A stretch of DNA of 37,499 nt, taken from Candidatus Omnitrophota bacterium. Lineage in GTDB: Bacteria; Omnitrophota; Gorgyraeia; 2-01-FULL-45-10. The position numbers were made by a program, and so were the translations under genes. The notes under the pieces are model-generated. The model did no database searches, was not told the origin of the DNA, and worked only from the letters and a program-made list of their open reading frames with translations. Shown here piece after piece: positions 18,615 through 33,429 of this stretch. The stretch lies in contig PLNN01000041.1 of the NCBI GenBank assembly GCA_003142795.1, positions 6,286 through 43,784 on the forward strand, in the 5' to 3' direction. Every line of letters begins with the position of its first letter. Within the stretch, counting starts at the first letter, position 1.

Positions 18615-18643
18615 AAAAAACCCGGCGAAGACACCGGGTTTTA
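18615..18643. terminator. Bidirectional intrinsic terminator
   Basis: AACCCGG (18619-18625) and CCGGGTT (18634-18640) form a stem with loop CGAAGACA, flanked by A residues on the left and TTTTATT on the right. It ends the acyltransferase transcript on the plus strand and could stop minus-strand transcription from the GIY-YIG gene. Confidence 0.8.
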
Positions 18644-18645
18644 TT

Positions 18646-18663
18646 AATGGCGTGGACGACGGG
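18646..18663 (+). repeat. Degenerate third copy of the tRNA-Asp att core
   Basis: AATGGCGTGGACGACGGG differs by one base from the att core at 19065-19083 and 33351-33369. It corresponds to the 3' end of tRNA-Asp and suggests an older integration or a duplicated end. The GIY-YIG cassette lies exactly between this copy and attL. Confidence 0.75.
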
Positions 18664-18706
18664 TCTACTTCGCTACTGTGCTTAAACTGGATGGAGCTTC
18701 GTAGCA
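18664..18706 (+). repeat. Left inverted repeat of the GIY-YIG cassette
   Basis: The segment starts TCTACTTCGCT, contains TTAAAC and ends AGCTTCGTAGCA. It matches the reverse complement of 19022-19065 over most of its length. A second inverted pair, GCGAAGTAGAATGGC, occurs at 18716-18730 (reverse) and 19056-19070 (forward). Confidence 0.75.
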
Positions 18707-18721
18707 CCTGCTAGGGCCATT

Positions 18722-18985
18722 CTACTTCGCCTGAGAACGCGGTGGCAGTAATCGCTTGACTAGGAACGATTGCCCTGATCCTTCTTTCAGATATCGTTCA
18801 AACGCCTCAGCCGCATTTTTATTCCGGAAAACAATGTATGTCTCTATATTCCACGGGGCATATCTCTTTGTATAATACGAAAGCGCGCTATTATGCTCTT
18901 TTAAGCGTTTGTCAAGATCTTGAGTAATTCCAACGTAATGCTTTGCGGGATCCCTAAGGCTTGTGAGGATATAAACGATATGCAT
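18722..18985 (-). CDS. GIY-YIG endonuclease-like protein inside an inverted-repeat cassette
   Basis: This 87-residue single-domain protein has HIVYILTSLRDPAKHYVGITQ as the GIY-YIG strand pair (YIL, YVG), DLDKRLKEHN for the catalytic arginine helix, and EAFERYLKEGSG for the glutamate helix, so the key residues are intact. It lies between a degenerate att copy and attL and is framed by 43-44 bp inverted repeats. The inner inverted pair overlaps its 3' end. The arrangement recalls REP-associated transposases paired with their palindromes, but with a GIY-YIG nuclease. Domestication as an ordinary repair or restriction-like nuclease is the alternative. Confidence 0.85.
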   Translation of the reverse strand: MHIVYILTSLRDPAKHYVGITQDLDKRLKEHNSALSYYTKRYAPWNIETYIVFRNKNAAEAFERYLKEGSGQSFLVKRLLPPRSQAK

Positions 18986-19021
18986 GAAAGCATTATACCG
19001 TAAAATCGATACGTCGGCAAT

Positions 19022-19065
19022 TGCTACGAAGCTTCATTACGGTTTAACTGCTGCAGCGAAGTAGA
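19022..19065 (-). repeat. Right inverted repeat of the GIY-YIG cassette
   Basis: This is the reverse-complement partner of 18664-18706: it begins TGCTACGAAGCT and ends GCGAAGTAGA, touching the first base of attL. Its central part contains CTGCAG, so each repeat can also fold partly on itself. Confidence 0.75.
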
Positions 19066-19083
19066 ATGGCGGGGACGACGGGG
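19065..19083 (+). repeat. attL core (19-bp direct repeat)
   Basis: AATGGCGGGGACGACGGGG is identical to 33351-33369, where it forms the 3' end of tRNA-Asp. Here it is an isolated fragment of the tRNA 3' end displaced by integration, so it marks the left boundary of the element. Confidence 0.9.
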
Positions 19084-19180
19084 GTTTACCCATCACAAGC
19101 ACAAAATCCCCACTCTCGACGATAAAGCATAGCACAGATTTTCTAAATATTCTAATAAATCCCCTTAAAATAGCCCCATC

Positions 19181-19199
19181 TGTTACGTTCTGCTACGTT
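19181..19199 (+). promoter_or_regulatory. Left arm-type integrase sites
   Basis: TGTTACGTT (19181-19189) and TGCTACGTT (19191-19199) are tandem copies one helical turn apart, about 100 bp inside attL. The same pair recurs at 33281-33300 just inside attR in the same orientation, the expected arrangement for arm sites bound by a tyrosine integrase N-terminal domain. The rest of the 146-bp spacer between attL and the first gene shows nothing else I can name. Confidence 0.65.
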
Positions 19200-19228
19200 T
19201 ACCTTTTTAAATTCCTAATGGTGGCTCT

Positions 19229-19768
19229 ATGAGTTGGAATCATACCGACATAATGCACTATGTCTTTGATTCGGGAGCTTGGGAACGCCTTACAAAGAAT
19301 GAACTCCGAGTATATCTGCAAATCTGTAAGCACTATAACCTCAAAGAACATCGCTCCTATCCGAGTATAAACACACTGGCCGAAGAAGTATCAGTCTCAA
19401 GACTTGCCGTGATCCGAGCAATAAAGAAGCTAAAGGACGAGGGGCTTGTTGTAGTCAAGCAAGAGAGGCTAGGGAAGAGTTTCAAATGTAACATATATCA
19501 AATCCCCGACTACCTACTGAGGGAAATAGATAACAAAAAGGACGTGGTATCAAAAGAGATACTAGGTAGTATCATAAAATCGCTAGGTGGTATCAATTCC
19601 GATCAGGACAAGCACATAACCTACATAACGAATATATATAACTCTGTTATTAGTAATAATAAAAGAACTAGTTTAGTATCGAACGAGCCTTTAAGAAGAC
19701 CTAAAGACGTCTTTATGGGAATCTCTAAAGACGAAAGAACAGAGCTACAAGCGAAGGGGTTACTATGA
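19229..19768 (+). CDS. Winged-helix DNA-binding protein
   Basis: This 179-residue protein has an N-terminal winged helix-turn-helix (about residues 15-90: LTKNELRVYLQICKHYN, then YPSINTLAEEVSVSRLAVIR as the recognition part). This is the pattern of the HTH_36/replication-initiator-like group common in phages and plasmids. The C-terminal half is polar and unrecognised. It is the first gene after attL and overlaps the next gene by 4 bases (ATGA). The ribosome site GGTGG precedes the ATG. A role as early regulator or initiator accessory factor is plausible but unproven. Confidence 0.6.
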   Translation: MSWNHTDIMHYVFDSGAWERLTKNELRVYLQICKHYNLKEHRSYPSINTLAEEVSVSRLAVIRAIKKLKDEGLVVVKQERLGKSFKCNIYQIPDYLLREIDNKKDVVSKEILGSIIKSLGGINSDQDKHITYITNIYNSVISNNKRTSLVSNEPLRRPKDVFMGISKDERTELQAKGLL

Positions 19769-20436
19769 AGTCTAAGCACTCAGAGCTAATTCCCCTTAAT
19801 CCTAAAACTCTATCGCCTATAAAACAGGCTCTCAAGGGCGTTACCTTAACGAACTGCACGATCAATATTTATGTATCTCCTCAAGGATCATCAGCCGAGA
19901 TCAAGTCGAACATACCTGATAAATCTCTCCTCGAATATAAAGAGCCTCAATTCATCACGCCTAGAGACGCCTCAGAAATTCACGGATTAAGCGCACCTTT
20001 TTTCCTGTCTTTAGCTCATAAGATAGGAGAACACGACGGCATACGTTGGGTATTAGAAGAAGGAAAACTTGCGGAGTATTTGAGGGAACACCCCGAACAC
20101 CGAGAGAGAAGCCTCGCCTCTAAGAAATTAATTAATCCGCAACTACTTGCAGAAAGAGGGTATCAAATTTTAAAGGACGAGAGTAAGCAAGTCTATCCCG
20201 ACACGGCAAGAGTGCCTTCGGCTAATCGAAGCCGTTATATGTCTTATTCGGAGCTTGCTCGAAGGCTCGGCATTAGTTATTCGCTCTACTATGGCAAAGT
20301 GAGGCAAATTCTATATAAATTAATAAAGCAAAAGCCAGAGGAGGTAACTAAGAAGAAACAGGAAGACGAGGAATGGAATAGGACAGTTTCAAAATGGAAT
20401 CGAACATTGAAAAGAGACAAGGAATTAGGAAGGTAA
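19765..20436 (+). CDS. Unknown protein with helix-turn-helix-like C terminus
   Basis: This 223-residue protein is not recognised as a whole. Residues about 65-115 (RDASEIHGLSAPFFLSLAHK) resemble an excisionase or MerR-type helix-turn-helix, and residues about 150-190 (SYSELARRLGISYSLYYGKV) look like a second one. The last 35 residues are strongly charged. It starts inside the stop of the preceding DNA-binding gene, so the two are translationally coupled and probably work together in regulation or replication. Confidence 0.5.
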   Translation: MKSKHSELIPLNPKTLSPIKQALKGVTLTNCTINIYVSPQGSSAEIKSNIPDKSLLEYKEPQFITPRDASEIHGLSAPFFLSLAHKIGEHDGIRWVLEEGKLAEYLREHPEHRERSLASKKLINPQLLAERGYQILKDESKQVYPDTARVPSANRSRYMSYSELARRLGISYSLYYGKVRQILYKLIKQKPEEVTKKKQEDEEWNRTVSKWNRTLKRDKELGR

Positions 20437-20454
20437 ACGAAAGGAGATAGTGAG

Positions 20455-21324
20455 ATGAGTTGGAATAATGCAATAAAAGCAAATAAGGCAGAGATAGATC
20501 GTTGCGTGCGTGAGAAGTGCGAGACTATTATAAATGTTGGCAAGTATCTAAAGTCAGCCGGAATGTTGGGTAATCAAAAAACTACCTTCGAAGAATGTCT
20601 CGAAGGAAATAAGGAAGCCCTCGCAAGGATAAGGACAATGCTATATAAAGACCTCGAAAATACAGCATATCACCATAGGGGCAATGTAGATTGGGAGTTA
20701 CTGCAAAGGACAAGAGACGAAAGGTCTATGCGAACTTGGAACGCTTCGGATTCTCGCAAGTCGGGCAAGCCTAAACTTATTCATTATGGCAATGACGCTA
20801 CTCTTAATTGGCTTGTATATGGCTCTGACGAGGGCTTAGACAATAAAGACGACCCATTGCTTAACGCCTTTATGGTTGGCTTTCAGTTGGGGAAAGATGG
20901 ACTTGCTCTATTAAAACAAGGGAAGCAAATAGGAGACATTAAACTTACAAAGCACGAACATAAGGTTGAGAAGTATCTAAGGGAAAAAGACATAATAATT
21001 ACTCCTCGACAGATCGGAAAGGCAGAGCCGAGAAAGCCAATAGAGATTGCCCTCGATTTGTATAAATGCGTGAACGATATATTTGATAACATCTTTACCG
21101 ACAAAGAGCGAGAGGGCTTCGTCAGTTGGTTTGCTTGTGATAGGTCTCTAAGGAAAGCAGGGAAACAGCTTAAGATTGACCCTAAGAGCCTCCACGCTAG
21201 GTTATTTGGGGATAGCAGGGGCGGTGGGGCTATTCGAAAGGTAAGGAATAACCCCCGCCTAAGGGAATTGGCTTGGGAAGCAGGTATTTTAAAAAATCTT
21301 CCTAAAACTCCCCCCACAAAATAG
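20455..21324 (+). CDS. Unknown 289-residue element protein
   Basis: I do not recognise this protein. It is soluble and mainly helical, with no membrane segment. Near the C terminus, VSWFACDRSLRKAGKQLKID followed by PKSLHARLFG could be a helix-turn-helix, suggesting nucleic-acid binding. The ribosome site AAAGGAG at about 20439-20445 is good. It ends the first gene group of the element, and a 246-bp spacer with a possible terminator follows. Confidence 0.5.
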   Translation: MSWNNAIKANKAEIDRCVREKCETIINVGKYLKSAGMLGNQKTTFEECLEGNKEALARIRTMLYKDLENTAYHHRGNVDWELLQRTRDERSMRTWNASDSRKSGKPKLIHYGNDATLNWLVYGSDEGLDNKDDPLLNAFMVGFQLGKDGLALLKQGKQIGDIKLTKHEHKVEKYLREKDIIITPRQIGKAEPRKPIEIALDLYKCVNDIFDNIFTDKEREGFVSWFACDRSLRKAGKQLKIDPKSLHARLFGDSRGGGAIRKVRNNPRLRELAWEAGILKNLPKTPPTK

Positions 21325-21570
21325 GGTATTGTAGCCTATATATGGAAGGTAACTTGAAAATCGCACATATGATATAGAGGGGTATTTCGGACACCTAAAA
21401 GCACTATTTATGATGCAATCAAGGCAAATGTTCGGACAAAATTGAGTAAGTGAAGGGATAAGAAGACAAACCCGCAGTAAAGCCCGATCTGTTTCAAATT
21501 CGTTGGGGGAATCAAAAACCCCTCTTTTTTAAAAACTTCTGTTTTACCGCAGTAAATAGGAGACCCCATA
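21325..21570 (+). terminator. Spacer with possible intrinsic terminator
   Basis: There is no gene in this 246-bp spacer. GGGG at 21505-21509 pairs with CCCC at 21519-21522 and is followed by TCTTTTTT, a short-stem terminator that would end the first gene group. CCGCAGTAAA occurs twice (about 21470 and 21546), flanking the hairpin, which may be a regulatory repeat. Confidence 0.45.
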
Positions 21571-21795
21571 ATGAAGCAATATCTGATAAAAGACCTCGCA
21601 GATATTCTCAAATGTAGCAAGCAAGCAATATTGTGGCACGTCCACAAGAAGCATATTAAGGCCGAAGCAAGGCTAATGGGTAGTCAGCCTGTATGGGTAA
21701 TAAAAGAAGATCAGGCAGTAAAATTGGTATGGATATTGTTTTTAAATTCAGGAAAGGGGAGAAAAAAATGTGGTGGAAAAAAGCAGATAGACTAA
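21571..21795 (+). CDS. Small helix-turn-helix protein
   Basis: The protein has 74 residues. The N terminus, YLIKDLADILKCSKQAILWH, followed by HIKAEARLMGSQPVWVIKE, has the shape of a MerR/excisionase-type helix-turn-helix with a wing. AGGAGACC provides the ribosome site. It overlaps the next gene by 28 bases. It may be a second directionality factor or a transcriptional regulator of the replication genes that follow. Partner and site are unknown. Confidence 0.6.
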   Translation: MKQYLIKDLADILKCSKQAILWHVHKKHIKAEARLMGSQPVWVIKEDQAVKLVWILFLNSGKGRKKCGGKKQID

Positions 21796-22004
21796 ATGAC
21801 CTAACAAAGGCAATTGCAGACGAAGTGGTAAGTCTCAGATTTCTTGTGGCAAGGAATGAATTGTATCAGCTCAGACTACTTGCAAAGGTGGCTCTCGGGA
21901 CTGTCCTGACGCCCGAAGACTTGCTCAAGACAATGGCTGAGGCGAAATTGGAAATGTCTTTTGAAGACGTTAAGGCAAATGTAATGGCAGAGATTCAAAG
22001 ATAA
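21768..22004 (+). CDS. Unknown small protein, 78 residues
   Basis: The start is taken at ATG 21768, which follows AGGGGAG. The longer in-frame version begins inside the upstream gene and has no ribosome site. The product is helical and charged (begins MWWKKADRLNDL), with a segment LTPEDLLKTMAEAKLEMSFE that looks like a coiled-coil or small adaptor. I do not recognise it. It is part of the tightly packed second gene group leading to the primase. Confidence 0.55.
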   Translation: MWWKKADRLNDLTKAIADEVVSLRFLVARNELYQLRLLAKVALGTVLTPEDLLKTMAEAKLEMSFEDVKANVMAEIQR

Positions 22005-22032
22005 AATTCAAAGATAAAAGGAGAATATAAGA

Positions 22033-22200
22033 ATGAAAGAGCAGAAAATAAATGAGAGATTATCAAAATACATAGATAAAACCTATGAGAAATTTGGTTG
22101 GAATCCTAGACAGACAGAAATAAACTCTGAGGGCGATCTGCCTTTAAAAGAGGCGAGCGTCAAAGGTGCTGACTACGAAAAGGCCGTCGGTAGATCGTGA
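22033..22200 (+). CDS. Unknown small protein, 55 residues
   Basis: ATG at 22033 follows AAAGGAG at about 22017-22023. The frame runs 55 codons to a TGA that overlaps the GTG of the next gene (GTGA), which supports translation. The product is polar and not recognised. Confidence 0.5.
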   Translation: MKEQKINERLSKYIDKTYEKFGWNPRQTEINSEGDLPLKEASVKGADYEKAVGRS

Positions 22201-22436
22201 AGCCTTACGGAATCGGTTGGGTGCAAAAGAGTGAACGCCGTTATCTTGGGCGATTAAAGTTTTGTGTTTATGGACTTGATTCTTATTGCGTAATCGAGGG
22301 AGGTAATCACAGACGCTATACCACAAATATGACGGGCTTCCCTAAATATTGTTACGAGGGGATTCTACTAAGTTTTAACCTGATATATAAATATGGCTTT
22401 AAACCCGAAGCAATTAACGTAAGAAAGGAAGAATAG
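22197..22436 (+). CDS. Unknown small protein, 79 residues
   Basis: It starts at GTG 22197, overlapping the previous stop by 4 bases. The sequence suggests a small mixed strand/helix domain rich in tyrosine and glycine (IGWVQKSERRYLGRLKFCVY, CYEGILLSFNLIYKYGF). No motif is recognised. Compact spacing on both sides, 4 bases to the cold-shock gene, makes it part of the same operon. Confidence 0.5.
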   Translation: MKPYGIGWVQKSERRYLGRLKFCVYGLDSYCVIEGGNHRRYTTNMTGFPKYCYEGILLSFNLIYKYGFKPEAINVRKEE

Positions 22437-22440
22437 AAGA

Positions 22441-22686
22441 ATGAAAGGCACAGTCAACTTTTTCTCAACGCAGGGGTGGGGTTTTATAAAGGGCGATGAT
22501 AAGCAGGATTATTACGTCCATCATACAGGCATTGCTACCGACGAGACTTTTAAAATGCTAATGAAGAATGAGGTTGTCGAGTTTGACATTCAGCCGACAG
22601 ATAAGCCCCGTCCAATGGCGGTAAATGTCAAAGTTACCAGAGTATATAAGAATGAGGAGAAGGCAAATGCAGACAGAAGTATATAA
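22441..22686 (+). CDS. Cold-shock domain protein carried by the element
   Basis: This 81-residue protein begins GTVNFFSTQGWGFIKGDD, the first strand and RNP1-like region of the CspA fold (usual KGFGFI replaced by QGWGFI), then DYYVHHTGI as the RNP2-like HxH region, and EVVEFDIQ. CspA-type proteins bind single-stranded nucleic acid. The gene directly precedes and overlaps the primase-helicase by 20 bases, suggesting a single-strand binding role in element replication or mRNA handling. It is slightly longer and more divergent than host CspA. Confidence 0.8.
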   Translation: MKGTVNFFSTQGWGFIKGDDKQDYYVHHTGIATDETFKMLMKNEVVEFDIQPTDKPRPMAVNVKVTRVYKNEEKANADRSI

Positions 22687-23947
22687 AGATACGGAGACGA
22701 ACACAAGCTCCGAGAATGAAGTTACCTTTAATCATAACAAGGTAGCAAGTAGTATTTTAAATCGCAATCAAATTATATATATCGAAGAGCAGGACGCCTT
22801 TTATATTTACAAGGATAACTATTATCAGAAATTTCGAGTGGGGCAAATAGGCAAGGAAATCAAAAGAGTTGTTGGGAATAAGTTTTCAAAACACACGCAG
22901 GCAGAGGTTATTAACTCGCTCAAGGCTGACGCCATTATTAAATTCGAGGACTTAAACAGCTCTTCGCTTTTGAACTTAAAGAATGGCTTATTTGACATAG
23001 CGTCCGAGACCCTGATTCCCCATTCGCCTCAAGTCAAAAGCACGATTCGCCTCAATGTTTCTTATAACAAAGATGCTAAATGCCCGAAGTGGCGGAAAGC
23101 AATCTCTGAGATATTGGAGGACGAAGGGAAAATATCGGTCTTTCAGGAATATTGCGGTCTATGCCTAACAAAAGAAACTCGCTATGCAAAGGCTTTGTTT
23201 CTGATCGGCGAGGGGGCTAACGGCAAATCAACGCTCCTTGCTCTCTTGGAGCATATCTTAACCTCGCTCAACGTCTCCTCAATACCGCTTGAAATGCTCA
23301 AGAATAATAACTACGTCGCAAATCTCTTCAATAAGCTAGTCAACATAAGCTTTGAAACGAACAGCAAAAGCGAGGTTTATGACGCAACATTCAAGTCAAT
23401 CGTTACGGGCGATTTAATGACAGCCGACGCAAAGTATGGACACCCTTTTGACTTTCGTCCGTATTGTAAACTGATTTATGCCCTCAACAATATGCCGAGA
23501 GTAAGCGACAAAACCCTTTCCTTTTACAGACGGCTTTTAATATTAAGGTTTAATAAGACGTTTGAAGGGGCAAGCGATAACAAAGGTCTCAAAGAGGAAC
23601 TCTTGACCGAGCTAGATGGCATTTTCCTTTGGTGCTTGGAGGGGCTTCGAAATCTAAGACAGAGAGGCGATTTTAAGCCGACAGAGGAAATGGAGCGAGA
23701 AGTTAAAGACTATCAGAGGGAGAATAACGCCGTCCTAGTCTTTGCGGAAGAGAAGTGCAATATAGATCCTAAGGCAAGCACTACAAAACAGATTCTATAT
23801 GACACCTTCAAAATCTGGTGCGAGGAGAACGGCCATAAGCCTGCGAGCCAAAGACACTTCACTAACGACCTGAAGAAAGCCTATCCGTCTTTAAAGGACG
23901 GACGAACGGAAGAGGCAAGGTTTTTAGAAGGTATCTGCCTAAAATAA
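22667..23947 (+). CDS. SF3 primase-helicase / replication initiator (D5/P4 type)
   Basis: I start at ATG 22667, after GAGGAGAAGG, giving 426 residues. An upstream in-frame start lies inside the cold-shock gene and lacks a ribosome site. Walker A is GEGANGKST at residues 181-189. The D5 N-terminal-like region precedes it (LLNLKNGLFDIASETLIPHS), and LIYALNNMPRVSDKTLSFYR RLLIL-type residues follow as the SF3 core with sensor and arginine-finger positions. The C-terminal part resembles the DNA-binding domain of P4 alpha-like proteins. No catalytic primase domain is visible, so it is mainly helicase and initiator. Iterons lie directly downstream, as in satellite Rep-ori modules. Confidence 0.9.
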   Translation: MQTEVYKDTETNTSSENEVTFNHNKVASSILNRNQIIYIEEQDAFYIYKDNYYQKFRVGQIGKEIKRVVGNKFSKHTQAEVINSLKADAIIKFEDLNSSSLLNLKNGLFDIASETLIPHSPQVKSTIRLNVSYNKDAKCPKWRKAISEILEDEGKISVFQEYCGLCLTKETRYAKALFLIGEGANGKSTLLALLEHILTSLNVSSIPLEMLKNNNYVANLFNKLVNISFETNSKSEVYDATFKSIVTGDLMTADAKYGHPFDFRPYCKLIYALNNMPRVSDKTLSFYRRLLILRFNKTFEGASDNKGLKEELLTELDGIFLWCLEGLRNLRQRGDFKPTEEMEREVKDYQRENNAVLVFAEEKCNIDPKASTTKQILYDTFKIWCEENGHKPASQRHFTNDLKKAYPSLKDGRTEEARFLEGICLK

Positions 23948-23964
23948 AACTCATTTAAGAGCCT

Positions 23965-24091
23965 AAATGACGCAAATGACGCAAATGACGCTTCTTCCCT
24001 ATGTTATTACAGAAATCAAAATATATATATACAATAAGAAGATGTGTCATTTCTGTCATTTCTGTCATTTTAAGCACAAACTAAATGACGC
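23965..24091. other. Iteron replication origin with AT-rich core
   Basis: Three perfect tandem copies of AAATGACGC (23965-23991) face three tandem copies of TGTCATTTC/T (24045-24071), whose complement is (G/A)AAATGACA. A seventh copy, AAATGACGC, is at 24083-24091. Between the opposed sets lies an AT-rich core containing ATATATATATACA. Opposed iterons around an AT-rich melting region next to an SF3 initiator is the structure of satellite and phage origins such as those of SaPIs. A frame through it encodes CHFCHFCHF, an artefact of the 9-base period. Confidence 0.85.
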
Positions 24092-24115
24092 AACGAGGGG
24101 AAAAGAGGGAAAAAC

Positions 24116-24703
24116 GTGTCAAAACGACTTACAGAGAAAGAAAAGGAATTCCTCCGGCTCTATACCGACACGGGGAGCGAGACATTCGGAAATGGAACAA
24201 GAAGTTACGCAAGGGTATATAAACCTAAGAACAATAATGTGGCAGGCGTTATGGCTTTAAGACTATTAAGAAAGGTAAAGGTGAAAAAGTATATGGCAGA
24301 ACAAACGAAGGAATGGGAGCTGGATATAGGCAAGCACGTGCAAGCACTCGACGAAATGGTAAACTCACTCATTGACAAGGCAAAAGCAAAGGGAGGGCTG
24401 ACTATCGCCGAGTTGGAGAAGCTTGTTAAGCCGATTCGATTCTTTGCGGAGTATGCGGGGAAGGTTGGCTCAGGCAATCAAGTCAACATCGCAATATTAC
24501 AGCAGGAATGGAAGAACGGCTCTACTCGTCAATGTCCGACTTGTGGGTATTCGCCGATGGGAATGTTACGCCTTGAAGAAATAATGAAAGACCTTCCTCC
24601 GCTTAAGCCCATCATAAACACACAGGCACAAGTTGAGTATGAGAAGACGCTCGAGCCTCAGGCAAATTTAGATCGGGCAATGGTTACGGCGAAGGACAGC
24701 TAA
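24116..24703 (+). CDS. Probable terminase small subunit (TerS)
   Basis: This 195-residue protein starts at GTG after GAGGG. The N-terminal region LTEKEKEFLRLYTDTGSETF, then GTRSYARVYK, then VMALRLLRKVKVKKYMAEQ is the pattern of small terminase DNA-binding domains, where a helix-turn-helix is followed by a stretch ending in VKKYM. A helical oligomerisation-like part follows, with QCPTCGYSPMG near residue 140 as a single CxxC. TerS selects the DNA to be packaged. No large terminase gene is present in the element, so it would need a helper phage's TerL. A DNA-binding protein of another kind is the alternative. Confidence 0.7.
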   Translation: MSKRLTEKEKEFLRLYTDTGSETFGNGTRSYARVYKPKNNNVAGVMALRLLRKVKVKKYMAEQTKEWELDIGKHVQALDEMVNSLIDKAKAKGGLTIAELEKLVKPIRFFAEYAGKVGSGNQVNIAILQQEWKNGSTRQCPTCGYSPMGMLRLEEIMKDLPPLKPIINTQAQVEYEKTLEPQANLDRAMVTAKDS

Positions 24704-25411
24704 AATCGGTGCTTTATTATGTCGGGGTGGTAAGCACAGAATAAACAATGAAAAGGGCAGGGGGATTATTTACTATCTCTGGCTCGGCTCAAACATTGGC
24801 AGATTTTAGGAAGCCCGCAAAATCCCTCACAAAATAACAGGGCATTATCGCTAGGATTAGTTATACGGGGCGATAGGTCTTGGATAAGGATAACTTACGG
24901 ACAGGCTTTTCGGTAGGAGATCGTCTATCTGAGGGGCAATTAGAGGGTATTGGCAAGTAGGGTAAAGCAGGGGGCAGTAAGGAGTAGGCAGACAGGGCGA
25001 TAGGTGCTACAAGCAGGGCTGTAATAGCATTGGCGGGCAAGGACAGGCACTATATCGTATGTATGCTATGGATAGACTAGCCTCTACACACGCAAGGATT
25101 GACGTTCGGTCTTAATGTGAGCATATATATAGAAACAAGCCTTCAGCAGAAGACCCTTCACCCGCCCCAGACCCCTTGCTCTCTATGGTATAGTCAAAGA
25201 CATAATCGCCACCTATTCCCAAATCTCAGTTAGGAATAAATAGTCAGCTATTTACTCAGGGCAGGCTCAAGACACCTTAAACCGCCCGCCTCCGGCGGCA
25301 AACAGTTTGCTTCATTTAATTTATTCAAACAAGAGGGTGGCCTCATTCAAATCTTGAAGTTGAAATAATTTTTTGCGGGAAAATTTGAAATCTCAAAAAG
25401 AAAGGTGAAGT
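24704..25411. other. Long non-coding tract, 708 bp, between TerS and virion-like genes
   Basis: There is no frame of useful length with a start on either strand. The first half (about 24720-25100) is purine-rich on the plus strand with many TAG triplets. GGGCGATAGGT-like phrases occur at about 24870 and 24996. The second half has a perfect hairpin TAAATAGTCAGCTATTTA at 25237-25254, then CCGCC/GGCGG at 25286-25298 and GCAAACAGTTTGC at 25298-25310. Candidates are a packaging site (pac or cos), a structured RNA, a late promoter region, or the scar of lost packaging genes. Confidence 0.5.
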
Positions 25412-25576
25412 ATGGCAAGTCTTGGACTTAATGCTCTGACGGGCAAATTAGATTTAAAAACTTCTAATCTAGACAAAATGCCAATTTCTGATTCTGATAC
25501 ATACTTTAAATGGGTAGCCCCGAACACAATAGAACTATATGTTAATGGGGTTAAGGCTCAATCTTGGACAATATAA
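25412..25576 (+). CDS. Small virion-like protein, 54 residues
   Basis: ATG 25412 follows AAAGGTGAAG and opens 54 codons. The end, TIELYVNGVKAQSWTI, resembles the strand pattern at the end of phage fibre or decoration proteins. It stands alone ahead of the late-type genes and uses the same kind of ribosome site (AAAGGTGA) as the next gene. I cannot identify it further. Confidence 0.5.
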   Translation: MASLGLNALTGKLDLKTSNLDKMPISDSDTYFKWVAPNTIELYVNGVKAQSWTI

Positions 25577-25597
25577 CAAAAAAAGAAAGGTGATTTT

Positions 25598-26488
25598 ATG
25601 GCAAATAAGAATTGGGGCGAATCCTTCGCCGAGAGTTTTTCAGAAGGTTTGAATAACGGTATGCGTATGGCTTTTCAAGGAACTCAAATGGCTCAACAGG
25701 AACGGCAAAATCAGATGATGATGGACGCCCGAATGTTTGAACATGGCTACGAGAGGATTGATCCTAAAGACAACGAGGAGGAATTGAAGCAGGCCATATG
25801 GGAGAAGAAAGCCGAAGGTTATCCCGTTGCCGGAGGTGGGGCGGTTGGTATTCCCATTGGTGGGAAAGCGAAAGACGGCATTATCTATGACGCTCAGGGA
25901 AATGAGAAGGGCAGTTACACAGGAGAAGCTCCTAAGCCCGTAAGCAATCTTGTTTCAGGCTACGGAAAGAACATCGTCCGTATAGGCAATCTTTGGTATA
26001 AAGCCCCCGATCCTTCTAATGCTGATGATATTAACTCCGTCGTGGAGAAATTGAACAAGTCTTATCAGGGCGGTGGCTCTTTTATTCCTTCAACAAAAAG
26101 CGTTGGTGAAGTTACTTATCACTATCAGCCTAGTATTGAAGAACAATATGGAGGTTGGAGACAGCAGAACGGTTTTCAAAACGCTCCTATACAACAAATG
26201 CCAATAGAGACGCCAATGCAAGCTCCCATTCAATCTCCCGTTAGCACAATACAGCCTCCTAAGGCAGTAATACAAATGCGTAATATGGTTAGTAACGCAG
26301 TTGCGGAAGGGGCTTCTCTCGAAGAAATTTTACAAGGGATTAAAGATGAGGGAATGAATCCGATGGACTACGCCGACTTACTCAAGCCTCTCATTTCAAA
26401 GAGACAGACTGCTCCCGTTAAGCCTCAATCTCCCTATAACTTAATCAACACTAAAGCGAGAAGCAATAACAAGAGGAATCTAATCTAA
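25598..26488 (+). CDS. Virion-associated-like protein with glutamine/proline-rich middle
   Basis: The protein has 296 residues. The N terminus is helical and methionine/glutamine-rich (MRMAFQGTQMAQQERQNQMM), like small internal or head-completion proteins of podophages. Residues about 185-225 are rich in P, Q, I and M in near-repeat form (PIQQMP, PMQAPIQ, PVSTIQPP), and the C terminus is helical. No enzymatic motif is seen. Its stop overlaps the ATG of the 872-residue gene by one base, so both are expressed together. Function is unknown, and structural or ejection-complex partner is an inference. Confidence 0.5.
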   Translation: MANKNWGESFAESFSEGLNNGMRMAFQGTQMAQQERQNQMMMDARMFEHGYERIDPKDNEEELKQAIWEKKAEGYPVAGGGAVGIPIGGKAKDGIIYDAQGNEKGSYTGEAPKPVSNLVSGYGKNIVRIGNLWYKAPDPSNADDINSVVEKLNKSYQGGGSFIPSTKSVGEVTYHYQPSIEEQYGGWRQQNGFQNAPIQQMPIETPMQAPIQSPVSTIQPPKAVIQMRNMVSNAVAEGASLEEILQGIKDEGMNPMDYADLLKPLISKRQTAPVKPQSPYNLINTKARSNNKRNLI

Positions 26489-29106: not shown

Positions 29107-29115
29107 GGGGGAACT

Positions 29116-29859
29116 ATGCCACAATACACGCCGGAGGAAATGGCACAGAGGGCTGATTTCTATCTTAATAAGAAAGGTCTTAAGGATAGGGCTCAGGTAG
29201 TAAAGGATAAGCAAGAAGCCTTTGAAAAGGCTGCAAAGAAATATGGCGTTACACAGGAGCAATTTCAGCGAGGGATATTTCCCGATGAAGTAAAGGAGCT
29301 ATACGAGGACTACGCTAAGCACGATATTTTCTTAAGGCGAGCTGTCCAATGGAACATTGAGAATGACGCTAAAGAGGCAGGCGGTTACGATAAGTCGGGC
29401 GAGGCACTAGAGAACGAGTTTAATGGCTACGTCGCCACGAAAGAAACTACGGCAGAGCAGTTGAAGAAGATTAAAGAGGTAGAAGACAATTATAATAAAT
29501 ATCAGGACAGGGACAGTCTAACAAATTATGTAAAAACTACGATAGAGGCTAAAGGTGCAACGCCTGAGGAAAGAATCGAGAATGAAGTGCAGGAACGCCA
29601 CGATCAGGTGCAGGGGGCTATGGATCGCCTAAGGGATATTACAAAAGAAAACGAAGCCCGCACGAAAGCTGATAAGATTATGAAGGTGAACGACTACAAG
29701 GAATCGAGAGAAGCAATCGAGAAAGAGGCACTAGCCGATAAAAGGTTAATGCACTCAAACATTCCTCCTACTCGCAAAGATAACTTCACGATTGAAGTTG
29801 AGCAGAGGACAAATCAAATCCTAAAAGAAAGGGGCTACAATGTCATTCAAGAAGACTAA
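29116..29859 (+). CDS. Coiled-coil protein of the virion-like block
   Basis: This 247-residue protein is highly charged and helical from about residue 75 on (many E, K, D, R and Q), with an N-terminal EEMAQRADFYLNKKGLKDRA and no hydrophobic core segment. It reads as a coiled coil or scaffold-like protein. It starts 9 bases after the 872-residue gene with GGGG as ribosome site, and overlaps the next small gene by 20 bases. It is probably a partner of the large protein, and no family is recognised. Confidence 0.5.
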   Translation: MPQYTPEEMAQRADFYLNKKGLKDRAQVVKDKQEAFEKAAKKYGVTQEQFQRGIFPDEVKELYEDYAKHDIFLRRAVQWNIENDAKEAGGYDKSGEALENEFNGYVATKETTAEQLKKIKEVEDNYNKYQDRDSLTNYVKTTIEAKGATPEERIENEVQERHDQVQGAMDRLRDITKENEARTKADKIMKVNDYKESREAIEKEALADKRLMHSNIPPTRKDNFTIEVEQRTNQILKERGYNVIQED

Positions 29860-29992
29860 CCCGCAAGCTGAACGTGCAAAGAGAGAAGCAGAGGCGATGA
29901 AAGACTTAGCATTTAGGAAGAGTGCGGGAACGAGAATTACCGCTCCGAGACTTCCGCCTGAAAGAGTAAGCTACAACGGCAAGTTGATTTAA
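29840..29992 (+). CDS. Small basic protein, 50 residues
   Basis: ATG 29840 follows AAAGGGG and overlaps the end of the preceding gene by 20 bases. The 50-residue product is rich in K, R and A in its first half and ends with RLPPERVSYNGKLI. It is the last gene of the virion-like group, and a strong hairpin follows 30 bases later. It is not recognised. Confidence 0.5.
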   Translation: MSFKKTNPQAERAKREAEAMKDLAFRKSAGTRITAPRLPPERVSYNGKLI

Positions 29993-30022
29993 CCGACTAA
30001 TCTCTAAGCCTAGATTTTAAAT

Positions 30023-30052
30023 GAGGGGGTGCTTCGGCATAAGCACTTCCTC
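30023..30052 (+). terminator. Strong hairpin after the virion-like block
   Basis: GAGGGGGTGCTT (30023-30034) pairs with AAGCACTTCCTC (30041-30052), giving 12 pairs including two G-U around loop CGGCAT. The following T tract is poor, so efficiency as an intrinsic terminator is uncertain. The rest of the 253-bp spacer up to 30245 holds a repeated CGTGGAACAT (30123-30132 and 30168-30177) and no gene. Confidence 0.5.
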
Positions 30053-30245
30053 AGGTCGGCTTTGTCTTAAAGACCGTGCCGAGCGAAGCGAGGCCTCAAG
30101 ACCGTATAAAATACAGTAACGGCGTGGAACATAATATTTATTTTTAGGGGGTTTTTAGCTTTGATTTCGTGGAACATTGGTAAAAATCGTGCCAAATAGG
30201 TGGTCTAAATAGTGTTATAGTGAGAGGACTTTTTTAGGGTGGGGC

Positions 30246-30632
30246 TTAGTGTTCTTCAAAATCCTTGATCGTTTTAAGTCCTTTGATATAAACCTTTTTT
30301 AGAGTTAATGTTTTGTCGTGTTTTTTTAGCTCTGTGAATCTTTTCATATCTTCTTCTGTTAATTCGAGTTTAACGTCGAGGGTAGTATCGTGAAGCGACT
30401 TTTTAACAGATTGCTCTAATTTGTATTTCTTCTCTAAGATATAGGCGTGAGAAATATTATTATCACCGAGAATATAAACTATACTTCTGATAACGGCAGG
30501 GGAGGGAAGCTTGTTATGTTTTTCTATTTGTGTGATATAGACAGGGTTGACGCTGATCCTCTCGGCTAATTCGTAAACCTTCAAACCCTTTGCCTGACGA
30601 GCTTCTCTTATAATCTGACCGAATCGTTTCAT
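30246..30632 (-). CDS. Xre/CI-like repressor
   Basis: This 128-residue protein has an N-terminal helix-turn-helix of the Xre family (IREARQAKGLKVYELAERIS, then VNPVYITQIEKHNKLPSP) and a charged C-terminal region without the S24 self-cleavage domain. It is the only minus-strand gene of the element and is divergent from a Cro-like gene, as in lysogeny switches. Its promoter ends 7 bases before the ATG, so the message is likely leaderless, as for lambda cI from PRM. Without a LexA-like domain, induction must come from something other than RecA-driven self-cleavage, for example a helper-encoded antirepressor. Confidence 0.85.
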   Translation of the reverse strand: MKRFGQIIREARQAKGLKVYELAERISVNPVYITQIEKHNKLPSPAVIRSIVYILGDNNISHAYILEKKYKLEQSVKKSLHDTTLDVKLELTEEDMKRFTELKKHDKTLTLKKVYIKGLKTIKDFEEH

Positions 30633-30639
30633 AGTAAAA

Positions 30640-30668
30640 AGTATATCCCAAAACTAACTAACAGGCAA
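30640..30668 (-). promoter_or_regulatory. Repressor promoter, predicted leaderless
   Basis: On the minus strand TTGCCT (30668-30663) and TATACT (30645-30640) are 17 bases apart. The start codon lies 7 bases after the -10, at the expected transcription start. The operator copy at 30651-30664 fills the spacer, so bound repressor would act on its own promoter. Confidence 0.75.
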
Positions 30669-30727
30669 ATGTTATTTTTTATTTGACAAAGACCGATTCA
30701 TAGTGTAAACTAACTAACAGAAGTTAG
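30651..30727. promoter_or_regulatory. Operator repeats of the switch
   Basis: AAACTAACTAACAG occurs at 30651-30664 and again, identical, at 30707-30720. The second copy overlaps the palindrome CTAACAGAAGTTAG at 30714-30727. One copy sits in the repressor promoter and the other overlaps the -10 of the rightward promoter, so binding can shut either direction. Confidence 0.75.
30683..30711 (+). promoter_or_regulatory. Rightward (Cro-side) promoter
   Basis: A perfect TTGACA at 30683-30688 and TAAACT at 30706-30711 are 17 bases apart. Start would be near 30718, giving a leader of about 79 bases before the Cro-like ATG at 30797. The second operator overlaps the -10. Confidence 0.8.
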
Positions 30728-30796
30728 GCAGTATCAAGTAGGGCAAAGTTTTTTTTGGTTTGTAGCTCAAATAATAAATAAATGGAGGTGGTAAAT

Positions 30797-30988
30797 ATGG
30801 CAACGGCATTAAAATTGGAGCGGACGAGGCAGAACATTAAGCAGTATAGACTTGCCTCTCTAGTTGGTATCTCGCCCTCAGAGCTTAGTCTCTATGAGAG
30901 CGGAAGACAACGCTGTCCGGCAGATATGAGGCATAGGATAGCGGACGTGTTGAAGGTTAAGGTAGAGCAGTTATTCGAGGAAAACTAA
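30797..30988 (+). CDS. Cro-like helix-turn-helix protein
   Basis: I use ATG 30797 because GGAGGTGG at 30784-30791 fits it. The in-frame ATG at 30782 precedes that site. The 63-residue product is a single Xre helix-turn-helix (LERTRQNIKQYRLASLVGIS, then PSELSLYESGRQRCPAD, then ending VEQLFEEN). It diverges from the repressor and heads the integrase operon, so it is the expected Cro-type partner. It might instead be an activator of recombination genes. Confidence 0.85.
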   Translation: MATALKLERTRQNIKQYRLASLVGISPSELSLYESGRQRCPADMRHRIADVLKVKVEQLFEEN

Positions 30989-31006
30989 AAGGGGAGGGTT
31001 GGGAGA

Positions 31007-31231
31007 ATGAAAAAGATTAAATTATATAATAAAGTAGAAATTAAAAAGAATGTCAAAGAGTTGGAAAATTTTACTTTTGAAGATGAAGAACTTGTGAGGC
31101 TTGGTTTCAAGTGCGATGGACACGCCACAGAATACGGAGAGAGAGCTTGGCGTTGGATAAGAGGAGAGGAATCAATAATCGCTTGGGACGTAGGAAATGG
31201 ATTCTGTTGTGTAATGGGAAGGCAGGCGTGA
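31007..31231 (+). CDS. Unknown small protein, 74 residues
   Basis: GGAGGG and GGGAG precede the ATG. The product has an N-terminal charged region and a compact, tryptophan-rich C-terminal part (GERAWRWIRGEESIIAWD then GNGFCCVMG). No family is recognised. It is 19 bases after the Cro-like gene and 1 base before the zinc-ribbon gene, so it belongs to the same early operon. Confidence 0.5.
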   Translation: MKKIKLYNKVEIKKNVKELENFTFEDEELVRLGFKCDGHATEYGERAWRWIRGEESIIAWDVGNGFCCVMGRQA

Positions 31232-31232
31232 A

Positions 31233-31358
31233 ATGAAATGCTCAAAATGCGGTAGCGGTTACATCGAGATAAAGAAGTCGAATTGCTTGAGAGCGATTGC
31301 AGTTTGTAAGTGCTGCCTCTTCGCTTGGGTGGTTAATCTCTTCAAGGGTGCGATATGA
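31233..31358 (+). CDS. Small zinc-ribbon protein, 41 residues
   Basis: ATG 31233 opens 41 codons encoding a CSKCGSG knuckle and a second CKCC knuckle about 22 residues later, a minimal zinc ribbon, with a hydrophobic tail (LFAWVVNLFKG). The stop overlaps the ATG of the serine recombinase (ATGA), supporting translation. Its role is unknown. Confidence 0.6.
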   Translation: MKCSKCGSGYIEIKKSNCLRAIAVCKCCLFAWVVNLFKGAI

Positions 31359-31897
31359 AGATTGCCCTCTATGCCCGAGTAAGTAAGGACGATGGAAGTC
31401 AGACAACGGACAATCAGTTAGAGCCTCTGCGTAAGTATGCCTCTGCTATGGGTTGGGAAGTAGTCAAAGAATATGTGGAAATGGTGTCGGGTGGTGGAAA
31501 ATATCGGGAAGAATTTAATAATATGCTAAGTGATTCTGATAAACACCTTTTTGACACTATCCTTATTTGGTCGCTTGATAGATTTTCAAGAGAAGGAACA
31601 TCTACAATGTTGGGATATGTGGATAGGCTTAAAAGAAATAAGGTTGGGCTTTGCTCCCTTCAGGAAAGGTGGCTTGATATTTCAGATTCAGGCATTGCAA
31701 CGGACGTTATTCTGCCTATTCTTGCTTGGGTTGCAAAAATGGAAAGACAACGCATAAGCGAAAGAACAAAGGCGGGTTTAGCAAGGGCAAAAGCTCAGGG
31801 CGTAAAACTTGGTCGCAAGAAAGGCTCTAAAGACAAGGTGCGTCGAGTTAGATCAGGCTACGTCAAAAGATGGAGAGGAGAAAAGAAGAATGGATAG
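31355..31897 (+). CDS. Small serine recombinase (resolvase/invertase)
   Basis: The protein has 180 residues. The catalytic serine is S10 in ALYARVSKDDGSQTTDNQLE, and the catalytic arginines are in LDRFSREG near residue 76 and MERQRISERTKAGL near residue 128, with the E helix and a short basic DNA-binding tail (GVKLGRKKGSKDK). Lengths near 180-200 are typical of resolvases and invertases, not of large integrases. With a tyrosine integrase present it is a second recombinase, perhaps resolving multimers formed by iteron replication. The tail lacks an obvious full helix-turn-helix, so site binding may be unusual. Confidence 0.9.
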   Translation: MKIALYARVSKDDGSQTTDNQLEPLRKYASAMGWEVVKEYVEMVSGGGKYREEFNNMLSDSDKHLFDTILIWSLDRFSREGTSTMLGYVDRLKRNKVGLCSLQERWLDISDSGIATDVILPILAWVAKMERQRISERTKAGLARAKAQGVKLGRKKGSKDKVRRVRSGYVKRWRGEKKNG

Positions 31898-32033
31898 AGA
31901 GGAGCTTGCTCAGGAATTGGCAGAAGAATTTATCAATGACGGCAGGCCTATTGAGGAAGTAAAAGACCTTATGCGGGATTTAACGGTTGAGACAATACTA
32001 AAATTTAAGGAACTATCGAAGGAGGCAGAATAA
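31890..32033 (+). CDS. Unknown small acidic protein, 47 residues
   Basis: The start is taken at ATG 31890 after GGAGAGGAG; the longer frame has no ribosome site. The 47-residue product is acidic and helical (EELAQELAEEFINDGRPIEE). It overlaps the recombinase end by 8 bases and its TAA overlaps the next ATG. It may be a small accessory factor of one of the recombinases, which is inference from position only. Confidence 0.5.
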   Translation: MDREELAQELAEEFINDGRPIEEVKDLMRDLTVETILKFKELSKEAE

Positions 32034-32221
32034 TGACTTGGGGAACAGCTAAACAAGTTTCAGAAAAGTTTGCGATACCATTATCAACAGTATATTACTA
32101 TGCGAAGACGGGGGATTTACCTTCAAAGCATATCGCAGGAAGAACAAAATATCCGTTAGACGTTATTGATAAGGACTTTAACAAGAGCGTAAAGGACAAT
32201 GCGAATACAAAAGTTTGGTGA
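32033..32221 (+). CDS. Excisionase-like helix-turn-helix protein
   Basis: This 62-residue protein has a MerR/HTH_17-type motif (GTAKQVSEKFAIPLSTVYYY, then AKTGDLPSKHIAGRTKYPLD), the form common to excisionases and recombination directionality factors. It overlaps the integrase by 23 bases, the classic xis-int arrangement. It should bend DNA at the attachment arms and favour excision. Confidence 0.75.
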   Translation: MTWGTAKQVSEKFAIPLSTVYYYAKTGDLPSKHIAGRTKYPLDVIDKDFNKSVKDNANTKVW

Positions 32222-33269
32222 GCCTTATAGGCGTAAAGATAGCCCCTATTGGTGGATATGGTATTACGACGCCATAGGTAAGCGTAGGCAAGAAAGCACG
32301 CAGACACAGGATAGGGGCTTGGCTATGAAGATTCTCCGCAGCCGGATAATGGAGTATTCACAGCTTAAGGGTGGGGTTAAAGAGACAAGCGATATGCCTT
32401 ATGCAGCATTTGGGGAAGATTATTTAAAATATGTAAAGGCACGTTACACCGCAGAAACTTATAAATCCTATAAAACCGCCGTAAGAGTTTTTAGTGATTA
32501 TCTATTGGGGCAGGGATTATCGAGATTATCAGATATAGACTACGGGCTGATACAGAGATTCATTACAGATCGCCGGAGCAAAGGCAACAAAGCGAATACT
32601 TGTAATAATTATATGAAGAATCTTCACGCTCAATTTGAATATGCGATAACTCAGAAACTTATGCCTCAAAACATAATGCCCATTAAATATTCAAAAATCC
32701 CCGTTACAGATTCAAAAGAGCCGAAAGCCTTAACAGAGGTTGAGTATAAAAGGATTATGACAAGGATTAAGACGGACTACCCGTATTTCTACCCGATATT
32801 CTATGTCTATTTCCACACAGGGTTAAGATTCACAGAACTAATAACTCAAGAATGGAAAGACGTCTTTCTTGATAAGGCATATTTAAGAGTTACAAGACCG
32901 AAAGGGAAAAGGAAAGGAATAGACACAGTTGATCTAAGCAATTCACTAATAAAGATATTTGAGAGTTTTAAGGGTAAGCATAAAACTTATGTATTTGTAG
33001 ATGAAAATAGAGAGCCTTTCAGTATGAGGACAAGAAAGTTTATAAGGCGTATTCAGGCGATAGCGAATGATCTAGGCATTGAAGGGGTAAACCTTCACAC
33101 TACAAGACACACCTTCGGCAGTCATTATATTGACGCCGGAGCGAGCCTTGAGGAGACGCAGCGAGCTTTAAGGCACAGGGAGATCAGAACTACGCAGAGC
33201 TACGTCCATAAGGTAAATCCGTCTCATTCACGTCTTACGGGCATATTGGAGAAGAAATTAAGGATATGA
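32199..33269 (+). CDS. int: Tyrosine integrase of the element
   Basis: This 356-residue phage-type integrase has a basic N-terminal arm-binding region (KFGEPYRRKDSPYWWIWYYD), a SAM-like core-binding domain (about 70-165) and a catalytic domain with R210 in HTGLRFTEL, H300 and R303 in HTTRHTFG, H326 in LRHREI, and nucleophile Y335 in QSYVH. All catalytic residues are intact. The gene ends 80 bases from attR in tRNA-Asp. The overlap with the excisionase gene and the arm-site pair at 33281-33300 complete a working recombination module. Confidence 0.95.
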   Translation: MRIQKFGEPYRRKDSPYWWIWYYDAIGKRRQESTQTQDRGLAMKILRSRIMEYSQLKGGVKETSDMPYAAFGEDYLKYVKARYTAETYKSYKTAVRVFSDYLLGQGLSRLSDIDYGLIQRFITDRRSKGNKANTCNNYMKNLHAQFEYAITQKLMPQNIMPIKYSKIPVTDSKEPKALTEVEYKRIMTRIKTDYPYFYPIFYVYFHTGLRFTELITQEWKDVFLDKAYLRVTRPKGKRKGIDTVDLSNSLIKIFESFKGKHKTYVFVDENREPFSMRTRKFIRRIQAIANDLGIEGVNLHTTRHTFGSHYIDAGASLEETQRALRHREIRTTQSYVHKVNPSHSRLTGILEKKLRI

Positions 33270-33280
33270 AAAAAATGAGC

Positions 33281-33300
33281 TGTTACGTTTCTGCTACGTT
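33281..33300 (+). promoter_or_regulatory. Right arm-type integrase sites
   Basis: TGTTACGTT (33281-33289) and TGCTACGTT (33292-33300) repeat, in the same orientation, the pair at 19181-19199. They lie about 50 bp inside attR. Spacing between the two copies is 11 here versus 10 at the left. Confidence 0.65.
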
Positions 33301-33350
33301 ACTTTAGGGGGTTTTTAATGTATCGACGGAGAAATGAATTGATTTTAAGA

Positions 33351-33369
33351 AATGGCGGGGACGACGGGG
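33351..33369 (+). repeat. attR core within tRNA-Asp
   Basis: This copy of the 19-bp repeat covers the CCA end, the acceptor strand and part of the T arm of tRNA-Asp. The element supplies this 3' end, so the tRNA remains intact after integration. Confidence 0.9.
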
Positions 33370-33429
33370 ATCGAACCCGCGACCTTCAGATCGACAATCT
33401 GACGTTCTAACCAGCTGAACTACGTCCCC
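33353..33429 (-). tRNA. tRNA-Asp (anticodon GUC), integration target
   Basis: On the minus strand the acceptor arms GGGGACG and CGTCCCC pair, the anticodon stem TCAGA/TCTGA encloses TTGTCGA with anticodon GTC, and the T loop is GTTCGATC-type. CCA is encoded, ending at 33353. The gene is complete, with its last bases contributed by the element. Confidence 0.95.

Follow-up and report, generated by a model that had tools for sequence, protein, structure and literature searches.

A stretch of 37,499 nucleotides from a Candidatus Omnitrophota bacterium (hereafter the window) carries a mobile element of 14.3 kb (19065-33369) that is integrated in a tRNA-Asp gene. The element lacks particle-building genes and yet encodes a protein whose counterparts in phages accompany the DNA. 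It is satellite-like in its anatomy and probably also in its way of life.

The ends of the element are marked by a 19-mer, AATGGCGGGGACGACGGGG, which occurs in two exact copies in the whole window. Since ARAGORN placed the tRNA-Asp gene on the minus strand at the right end, in agreement with Rfam, the right copy was recognized as the 3' end of the tRNA gene and the left copy as 17 nt of such an end, displaced, with a further 2 nt. By our estimate, an exact pair of 19-mers is expected by chance in 14 kb with a frequency of about 4e-4, even without the further demand that one copy be the 3' end of a tRNA gene next to an integrase. The integrase gene directly adjoins the tRNA-Asp gene, the G+C content drops from 48.1% in both flanks to 42.5% within the element, and the tRNA was the sole match in an Rfam scan of the element. 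A set of 27 relatives yielded no vacant tRNA-Asp site flanked by these neighbours; an ortholog of the left-flank gene was present in one of them, 12.4 kb from a tRNA-Asp-like match. Just outside the left end, a gene for a GIY-YIG endonuclease (18722-18985, minus strand) sits between inverted arms (18664-18730 and 19017-19070), and a third copy of the 19-mer, 89% identical, lies at 18646-18664. This region (18640-19070) may be a remnant of some previous integration, or it may represent a small mobile gene next to the tRNA site.

The recognized genes (Table 1) are all open and most of them have plausible ribosome-binding sites. Small open reading frames (ORFs) also lie between the Cro gene and the serine resolvase gene, and no anti-phage defence families were found among the unassigned ORFs of the element. 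An earlier note on this DNA had listed the repeats at tRNA-Asp and 14.3 kb to the left, an integrase, a divergent repressor/Cro pair, opposed iterons with an AT core and a TerS-like gene (terminase small subunit), and all of these were borne out, the repressor/Cro pair by both Pfam and PHROGs. Its excisionase-like gene gave two matches, HTH_17 and phrog_66, both weak. Its superfamily 3 (SF3) primase-helicase proved to be an SF3 helicase only, without the primase, whereas the two SF3 paralogues in the same genome (710 and 820 aa) have N-terminal extensions. The iteron array begins about 18 nt 3' of the SF3 stop codon, and the arrangement of three copies of AAATGACGC, an AT core and three copies of TGTCATTTC was seen in none of 301 shuffled elements.

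Table 1 Features of the tRNA-Asp element and its integration site (positions in the window)
Feature	Position	Strand	Evidence and remarks
attL, displaced tRNA-Asp 3' end	19065..19083		19-mer identical to attR
Replication-initiation/helicase-loader-like protein with HTH_36, 179 aa	19229..19768	+	PF13730 8.9e-13; phrog_678 "replication initiation O-like" 1.1e-10; 23% to DeMMO3_19 homologue
Protein with HTH-like C-terminus, 223 aa	19765..20436	+	31% over 80 aa to a protein of the C70 element of the same genome; no family above cut-off
Early-region protein, 289 aa	20455..21324	+	no family, no phage match
Three to four small ORFs	21571..22436	+	ORF list; no families
Cold-shock-domain protein	22441..22686	+	PF00313 1.7e-12; 34% to DeMMO3_19 homologue; a similar protein precedes SF3 in C40 and C70
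SF3 (D5/Pox_D5-type) helicase, 440 aa, no primase domain	22625..23947	+	phrog_864 8e-97; PF08706; PF03288
Putative replication origin: 3 direct iterons, AT-rich core, 3 inverted iterons	23965..24072		
TerS	24116..24703	+	PF03592 2.2e-7 (above cut-off); phrog_51 2e-10; 33% over 159 aa to DeMMO3_19 TerS, 5e-20
Stretch of 0.7 kb without recognizable gene, between TerS and ejection module	24704..25411		no Rfam match
54-aa ORF	25412..25576	+	good ribosome-binding site
ORF296, directly upstream of gp16	25598..26488	+	27% over 268 aa, 2e-20, to DeMMO3_19 homologue in the same position
gp16-type internal virion protein (apparent DNA-ejection protein), 872 aa	26488..29106	+	phrog_6651 1.6e-28
ORF247, downstream of gp16	29116..29859	+	29% over 150 aa, 4e-5, to DeMMO3_19 protein in the same position
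50-aa ORF	29840..29992	+	ORF list
CI-like repressor (HTH_3), 128 aa	30246..30632	-	PF01381 3.3e-7; phrog_3 4.3e-8; 31% to G105 element repressor
Cro-like HTH protein, divergent to repressor	30782..30988	+	phrog_2439 8.3e-9
Serine resolvase/invertase, 180 aa	31355..31897	+	PF00239 4.7e-34; 56% to G105 element, 32% to DeMMO3_19 element
Excisionase-like HTH_17 protein	32033..32221	+	PF12728 5.2e-5, just under its cut-off; phrog_66 0.017; weak
Tyrosine integrase	32199..33269	+	PF00589 1.2e-23; phrog_1 7.6e-50
attR, 3' end of intact tRNA-Asp gene	33351..33369		
tRNA-Asp (GTC), integration target	33353..33429	-	ARAGORN; Rfam

Only five ORFs of the element exceed 250 aa (872, 440, 356, 296 and 289 aa), so that TerL (terminase large subunit), portal and major capsid proteins cannot be hidden in it, and no TerL, portal, capsid or tail families were found among its proteins with PHROGs and Pfam. 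Like satellites in general, the element is integrated with its own integrase and att sites and lacks the genes for a complete particle; its TerS may serve to redirect packaging. The earlier note had recognized no TerL, portal, capsid, tail or lysis gene and had proposed profile searches of all products; these agreed with it for TerL, portal and capsid, and they uncovered the 872-aa internal virion protein that it had missed.

This protein is encoded by the largest gene of the element. In tblastn it matched the temperate podophage ctQWt234 (4e-27) as well as proteins annotated as internal virion proteins in Syn5, in P-SSP7 and in podophages of Pelagibacter and Roseobacter, and by sequence homology it belongs to the family of T7 gp16 and internal virion protein D. 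It is 58% identical to its homologue in a second Omnitrophota element, described below, 38% identical to the protein of L041, an 18.5-kb podophage-type contig, and 27% identical over 505 aa to gp16 of ctQWt234. The gp16 protein of T7 resides inside the head and leaves it with the DNA on ejection, and on homology the 872-aa protein apparently has a comparable role in DNA ejection. In a FastTree phylogeny of the two element proteins and seven phage proteins, the former two were found to form a clade (0.999) whose sister is the L041 protein, all three being joined with a support of 1.000. A profile search of 384 Omnitrophota genomes detected the family in these two elements only. A search of the Protein Data Bank with a profile of the gp16 alignment gave nothing meaningful.

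Both element proteins are shortened at the N-terminus. In these two the conserved AENIN motif is preceded by 157-184 residues, whereas in the five phage proteins with this motif it is preceded by 301-972, and hence at least 117 N-terminal residues of the phage homologues are missing; the extra part of one phage protein contains an NlpC/P60 domain, and no Pfam domain was found in the window protein. Some satellites interfere with their own helper (PMC10803314), and the shortened protein might likewise sabotage the helper by poisoning its internal core or by blocking superinfection. This explanation is considered rather unlikely, as conservation spans nearly the whole of the C-terminal 690 residues and two partner genes, ORF296 and ORF247, have been kept beside gp16, which suggests an assembled complex over a simple inhibitor. 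No phage homologue of ORF296 was found. The ORFs directly upstream of gp16 in L041, L042, L043 and ctQWt234 were compared with it and showed no homology, so that ORF296 resembles them in position only.

The second element was found in Candidatus Omnitrophota bacterium isolate DeMMO3_19 (genome G248), which belongs to the same class as the window genome but to another family. It is about 15.7 kb long and lies at about 47.3-63.1 kb of a contig of 106,999 bases, hence it is not truncated. It is integrated between two parts of comM (Mg-chelatase family), encodes a serine integrase of 491 aa and has no SF3 helicase. In spite of these differences, TerS, ORF296, gp16 and ORF247 have been kept in the same order in both elements, which also share the cold-shock protein, the replication-initiator-like protein and the resolvase. 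Only gp16 and the integrase exceed 300 aa in the DeMMO3_19 element, and TerL, portal and major capsid proteins are therefore absent from it as well. The two elements show that genes for packaging specificity and ejection can persist as a unit while integrase, integration site and replication genes are swapped. Between TerS and ORF296, the place of the 0.7-kb stretch without genes in the window element, the DeMMO3_19 element has minus-strand genes (ORFs 51317-52747). This points to a cargo slot, though the stretch of the window element may possibly also be a packaging site or the scar of a deletion. One of these minus-strand ORFs (G248:C55:51317-51877, corresponding to L028:10317-10877; 186 aa) looks by eye like an ADP-ribosyltransferase, and it had no Pfam or PADLOC match.

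The origin of the element can be considered in the light of ctQWt234 (MW202801.1). In this phage of 40 kb a replisome-organizer gene likewise comes first and gp16 late, and behind gp16 lie minus-strand genes and then the genes for excisionase and integrase; unlike the element, it has TerL, portal, major capsid, tail and lysin genes and a gp16 of 1121 aa. Because the order is broadly similar and TerL, portal and capsid are present in the phage, the element probably arose by loss from a podophage. The same order, together with a gene-free 0.7 kb at the place where TerL, portal and capsid would be, is also what is expected of a decaying podoprophage that became immobile on a deletion from TerL to the tail genes and whose remaining genes are leftovers. 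A related complete prophage of which the element is a plain deletion had been named in the earlier note as a case that would overturn the satellite, and ctQWt234 supplies a part of this case, as a complete phage of broadly similar order; the plain deletion is contradicted by the DeMMO3_19 element, which has the same reduced gene set with another integrase, site and replication module, so that this set is not a one-off deletion. Furthermore, the recognized genes have stayed open and the replicon has been retained with an intact iteron array. Comparison of the gp16 pair gave a pS of 0.80 and a pN of 0.30, with third codon positions 63% different as against 26-35% at the others; with synonymous change saturated, this indicates that gp16 has been under purifying selection over a long time. 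On these grounds decay is regarded as unlikely, and since a differently integrated element shares the packaging and ejection set, a stable kind of phage parasite is suggested rather than a broken virus. In the simplest history, a podophage lost its particle genes and the reduced form then persisted for a long time; alternatively, the module may have arrived by recombination.

A further explanation is that of a non-phage integrative element with phage genes as mere cargo. Omnitrophota do contain elements with SF3 and serine recombinases that have no clear packaging genes, for example in G083 and G149. On the other hand, TerS, the ejection module and the repressor/Cro switch together form a set of the phage type, and among the ORFs of the element that were scanned none matched a family of relaxases or of conjugation proteins; this explanation is considered very improbable.

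We therefore favour the reading that the tRNA-Asp element is an Omnitrophota phage satellite, which probably derives from a temperate T7-like podophage that lost its TerL, portal, capsid, tail and lysis genes. That it represents a new family, in which TerS and an own gp16-type ejection module are combined with the head and tail of a helper podophage in a phylum without described satellites, is put forward more tentatively, at slightly less than even chances. In the proposed mechanism, the element would excise in the presence of an active helper podophage and replicate from the iteron origin, and its TerS would direct the helper terminase to satellite DNA. The gp16-type protein, ORF296 and ORF247 would then enter the head built by the helper, either replacing its ejection proteins or beside them, and the satellite DNA would be delivered with ejection proteins encoded by the satellite.

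Several observations weigh against this reading. Only two members are known, and no near relatives were found in IMG/VR or among GenBank phages; searches of IMG/VR with gp16 or ORF296 returned only podophage-type contigs, with gp16 identities of 23-38%. ORF296 and ORF247 match no phage proteins and their relatives are known only between the two elements, so that their part in ejection is suggested by position and conservation. AlphaFold2 modelling of the gp16-type protein with six relatives gave a pLDDT of 45 and a pTM of 0.29, values too low to support a fold. The helper, induction, excision and encapsidation are postulated from the gene content, and the 0.7-kb stretch 3' of TerS could be a deletion scar. 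Two contigs of the same bin, C3 (L053; 15.5 kb, with phage DNA polymerase, DnaB-like helicase, SbcCD-like proteins and TerL) and C31 (L052; 3.3 kb, with a portal gene), are fragments of one or two further phages and show that other phages occur with the host or in the sample, but they may be unrelated to the element or mis-binned, and nothing links them to it.

The element may be one of a wider set of Omnitrophota satellites. A comparable plan is seen in an element of G105:C42 (L031 and L032; 22.1-35.1 kb), which starts at a tRNA-Ser and carries SF3, iterons and TerS (PF03592, 1.9e-13), then a protein of 487 aa that resembles TerL by eye and whose PHROG match has no assigned function. Further genes, among them one for a PIN-domain protein, precede repressor, Cro, the resolvase, an excisionase-like gene and an integrase truncated at the end of the contig; no capsid genes were recognized in the element. 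Two more elements were observed in the window genome. C40 (L011 and L012; 25.6-36.6 kb) adjoins a comM fragment and has SF3, a TerS-like gene, TerL (phrog_38), a MORN-like protein of 443 aa, a phospholipase-D-like nuclease and others, the contig stopping before any capsid gene. C70 (L013; 2.3-13.8 kb), at tRNA-Glu, has an integrase, a cold-shock protein, SF3 with an N-terminal extension, iterons, TerS-like and TerL genes, a 653-aa protein and a retropepsin-like aspartyl protease (PF13975, 1.7e-7); a GIY-YIG ORF like that of the window overlaps its tRNA gene. The 653-aa protein, which lies behind TerL, looked gp16-like by eye, and this was unsupported by BLASTP, profile comparison and tblastn against phages.

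The SF3 protein of the tRNA-Asp element is 43-56% identical to SF3 proteins in several other Omnitrophota genomes, and in most other SF3 elements of the phylum the DNA directly 3' of the SF3 stop likewise holds direct and inverted iterons on either side of an AT-rich core, as judged by eye outside the window, the shuffle test having been applied to the window array alone. Such opposed arrays were observed in C40, C70, G423, G105, G083, G141 and G149, with an iteron sequence that differs per element, and may provide a set for studying co-evolution of SF3 initiators and iterons.

Very few Omnitrophota have been brought into culture, and few of their phages are known. If the proposed reading is true, the element is the first type of satellite from this phylum as far as our searches show, and the two elements provide a concrete case for the origin of satellites from podophages. 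No literature on Omnitrophota satellites and none joining satellites with internal virion proteins was found, although most subscription papers and bioRxiv preprints lay outside the coverage, so that this is weak evidence; satellites and ejection proteins came together in one paper, on gene transfer in Staphylococcus. The earlier note had placed the element, as a satellite of a lineage without a described one, with the PICI (phage-inducible chromosomal islands, including SaPI) or P4 type; what was upheld is a capsid-less element with integrase, TerS and its own replicon in such a lineage, and the placement was not supported.

A recent review distinguishes P4-like satellites, PICI, cf-PICI, PLE, PICMI, VEIMEs and tycheposons (PMC11389934). 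The element shares with P4 an SF3 helicase, integration in a tRNA gene and a similar size; however, P4 has the alpha primase-helicase fusion where the SF3 protein of the element lacks a primase, no Sid-, Psu-, delta- or epsilon-like genes were found among the PHROGs and Pfam matches of the element, and, as a further difference, it has TerS and an ejection gene. SaPI and other PICI have an integrase, a divergent repressor pair (stl/str), a helicase-type replication protein (pri-rep) with an iteron or AT-rich origin and a Terminase_2-type TerS, without TerL, portal or capsid. The element may be likened to them in these types of gene, having a divergent HTH pair, iterons behind SF3, and TerS; a separate primase gene and a capsid-remodelling gene were not recognized in it, and it comes from another phylum. 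In PICI, int lies beside stl/str, followed by rep, with terS near the other end, whereas in the element rep, origin and TerS are at one end and repressor/Cro, xis and int at the other, with int at the tRNA. To our knowledge, no PICI/SaPI or P4 satellite carries a gp16-type (podophage) ejection gene. Cf-PICI have capsid, portal and head genes of their own, which the element lacks; it is therefore not a member of P4 or cf-PICI, nor a PICI in gene order. Like cf-PICI and the Streptomyces satellites of PMC10690885, the element brings some virion genes of its own, but those bring encapsidation genes and the element only TerS and internal ejection proteins. With Syn5 and P-SSP7 internal virion protein D and T7 gp16, the 872-aa protein shares homology over the C-terminal half; in contrast to the gp16 of T7-like podophages, it has no particle gene alongside, a shortened N-terminal part and no hydrolase domain. 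Known satellites alter the choice of packaged DNA or the size of the head, and ejection proteins of its own would give this element a different control point, which might alter the cells that receive satellite DNA.

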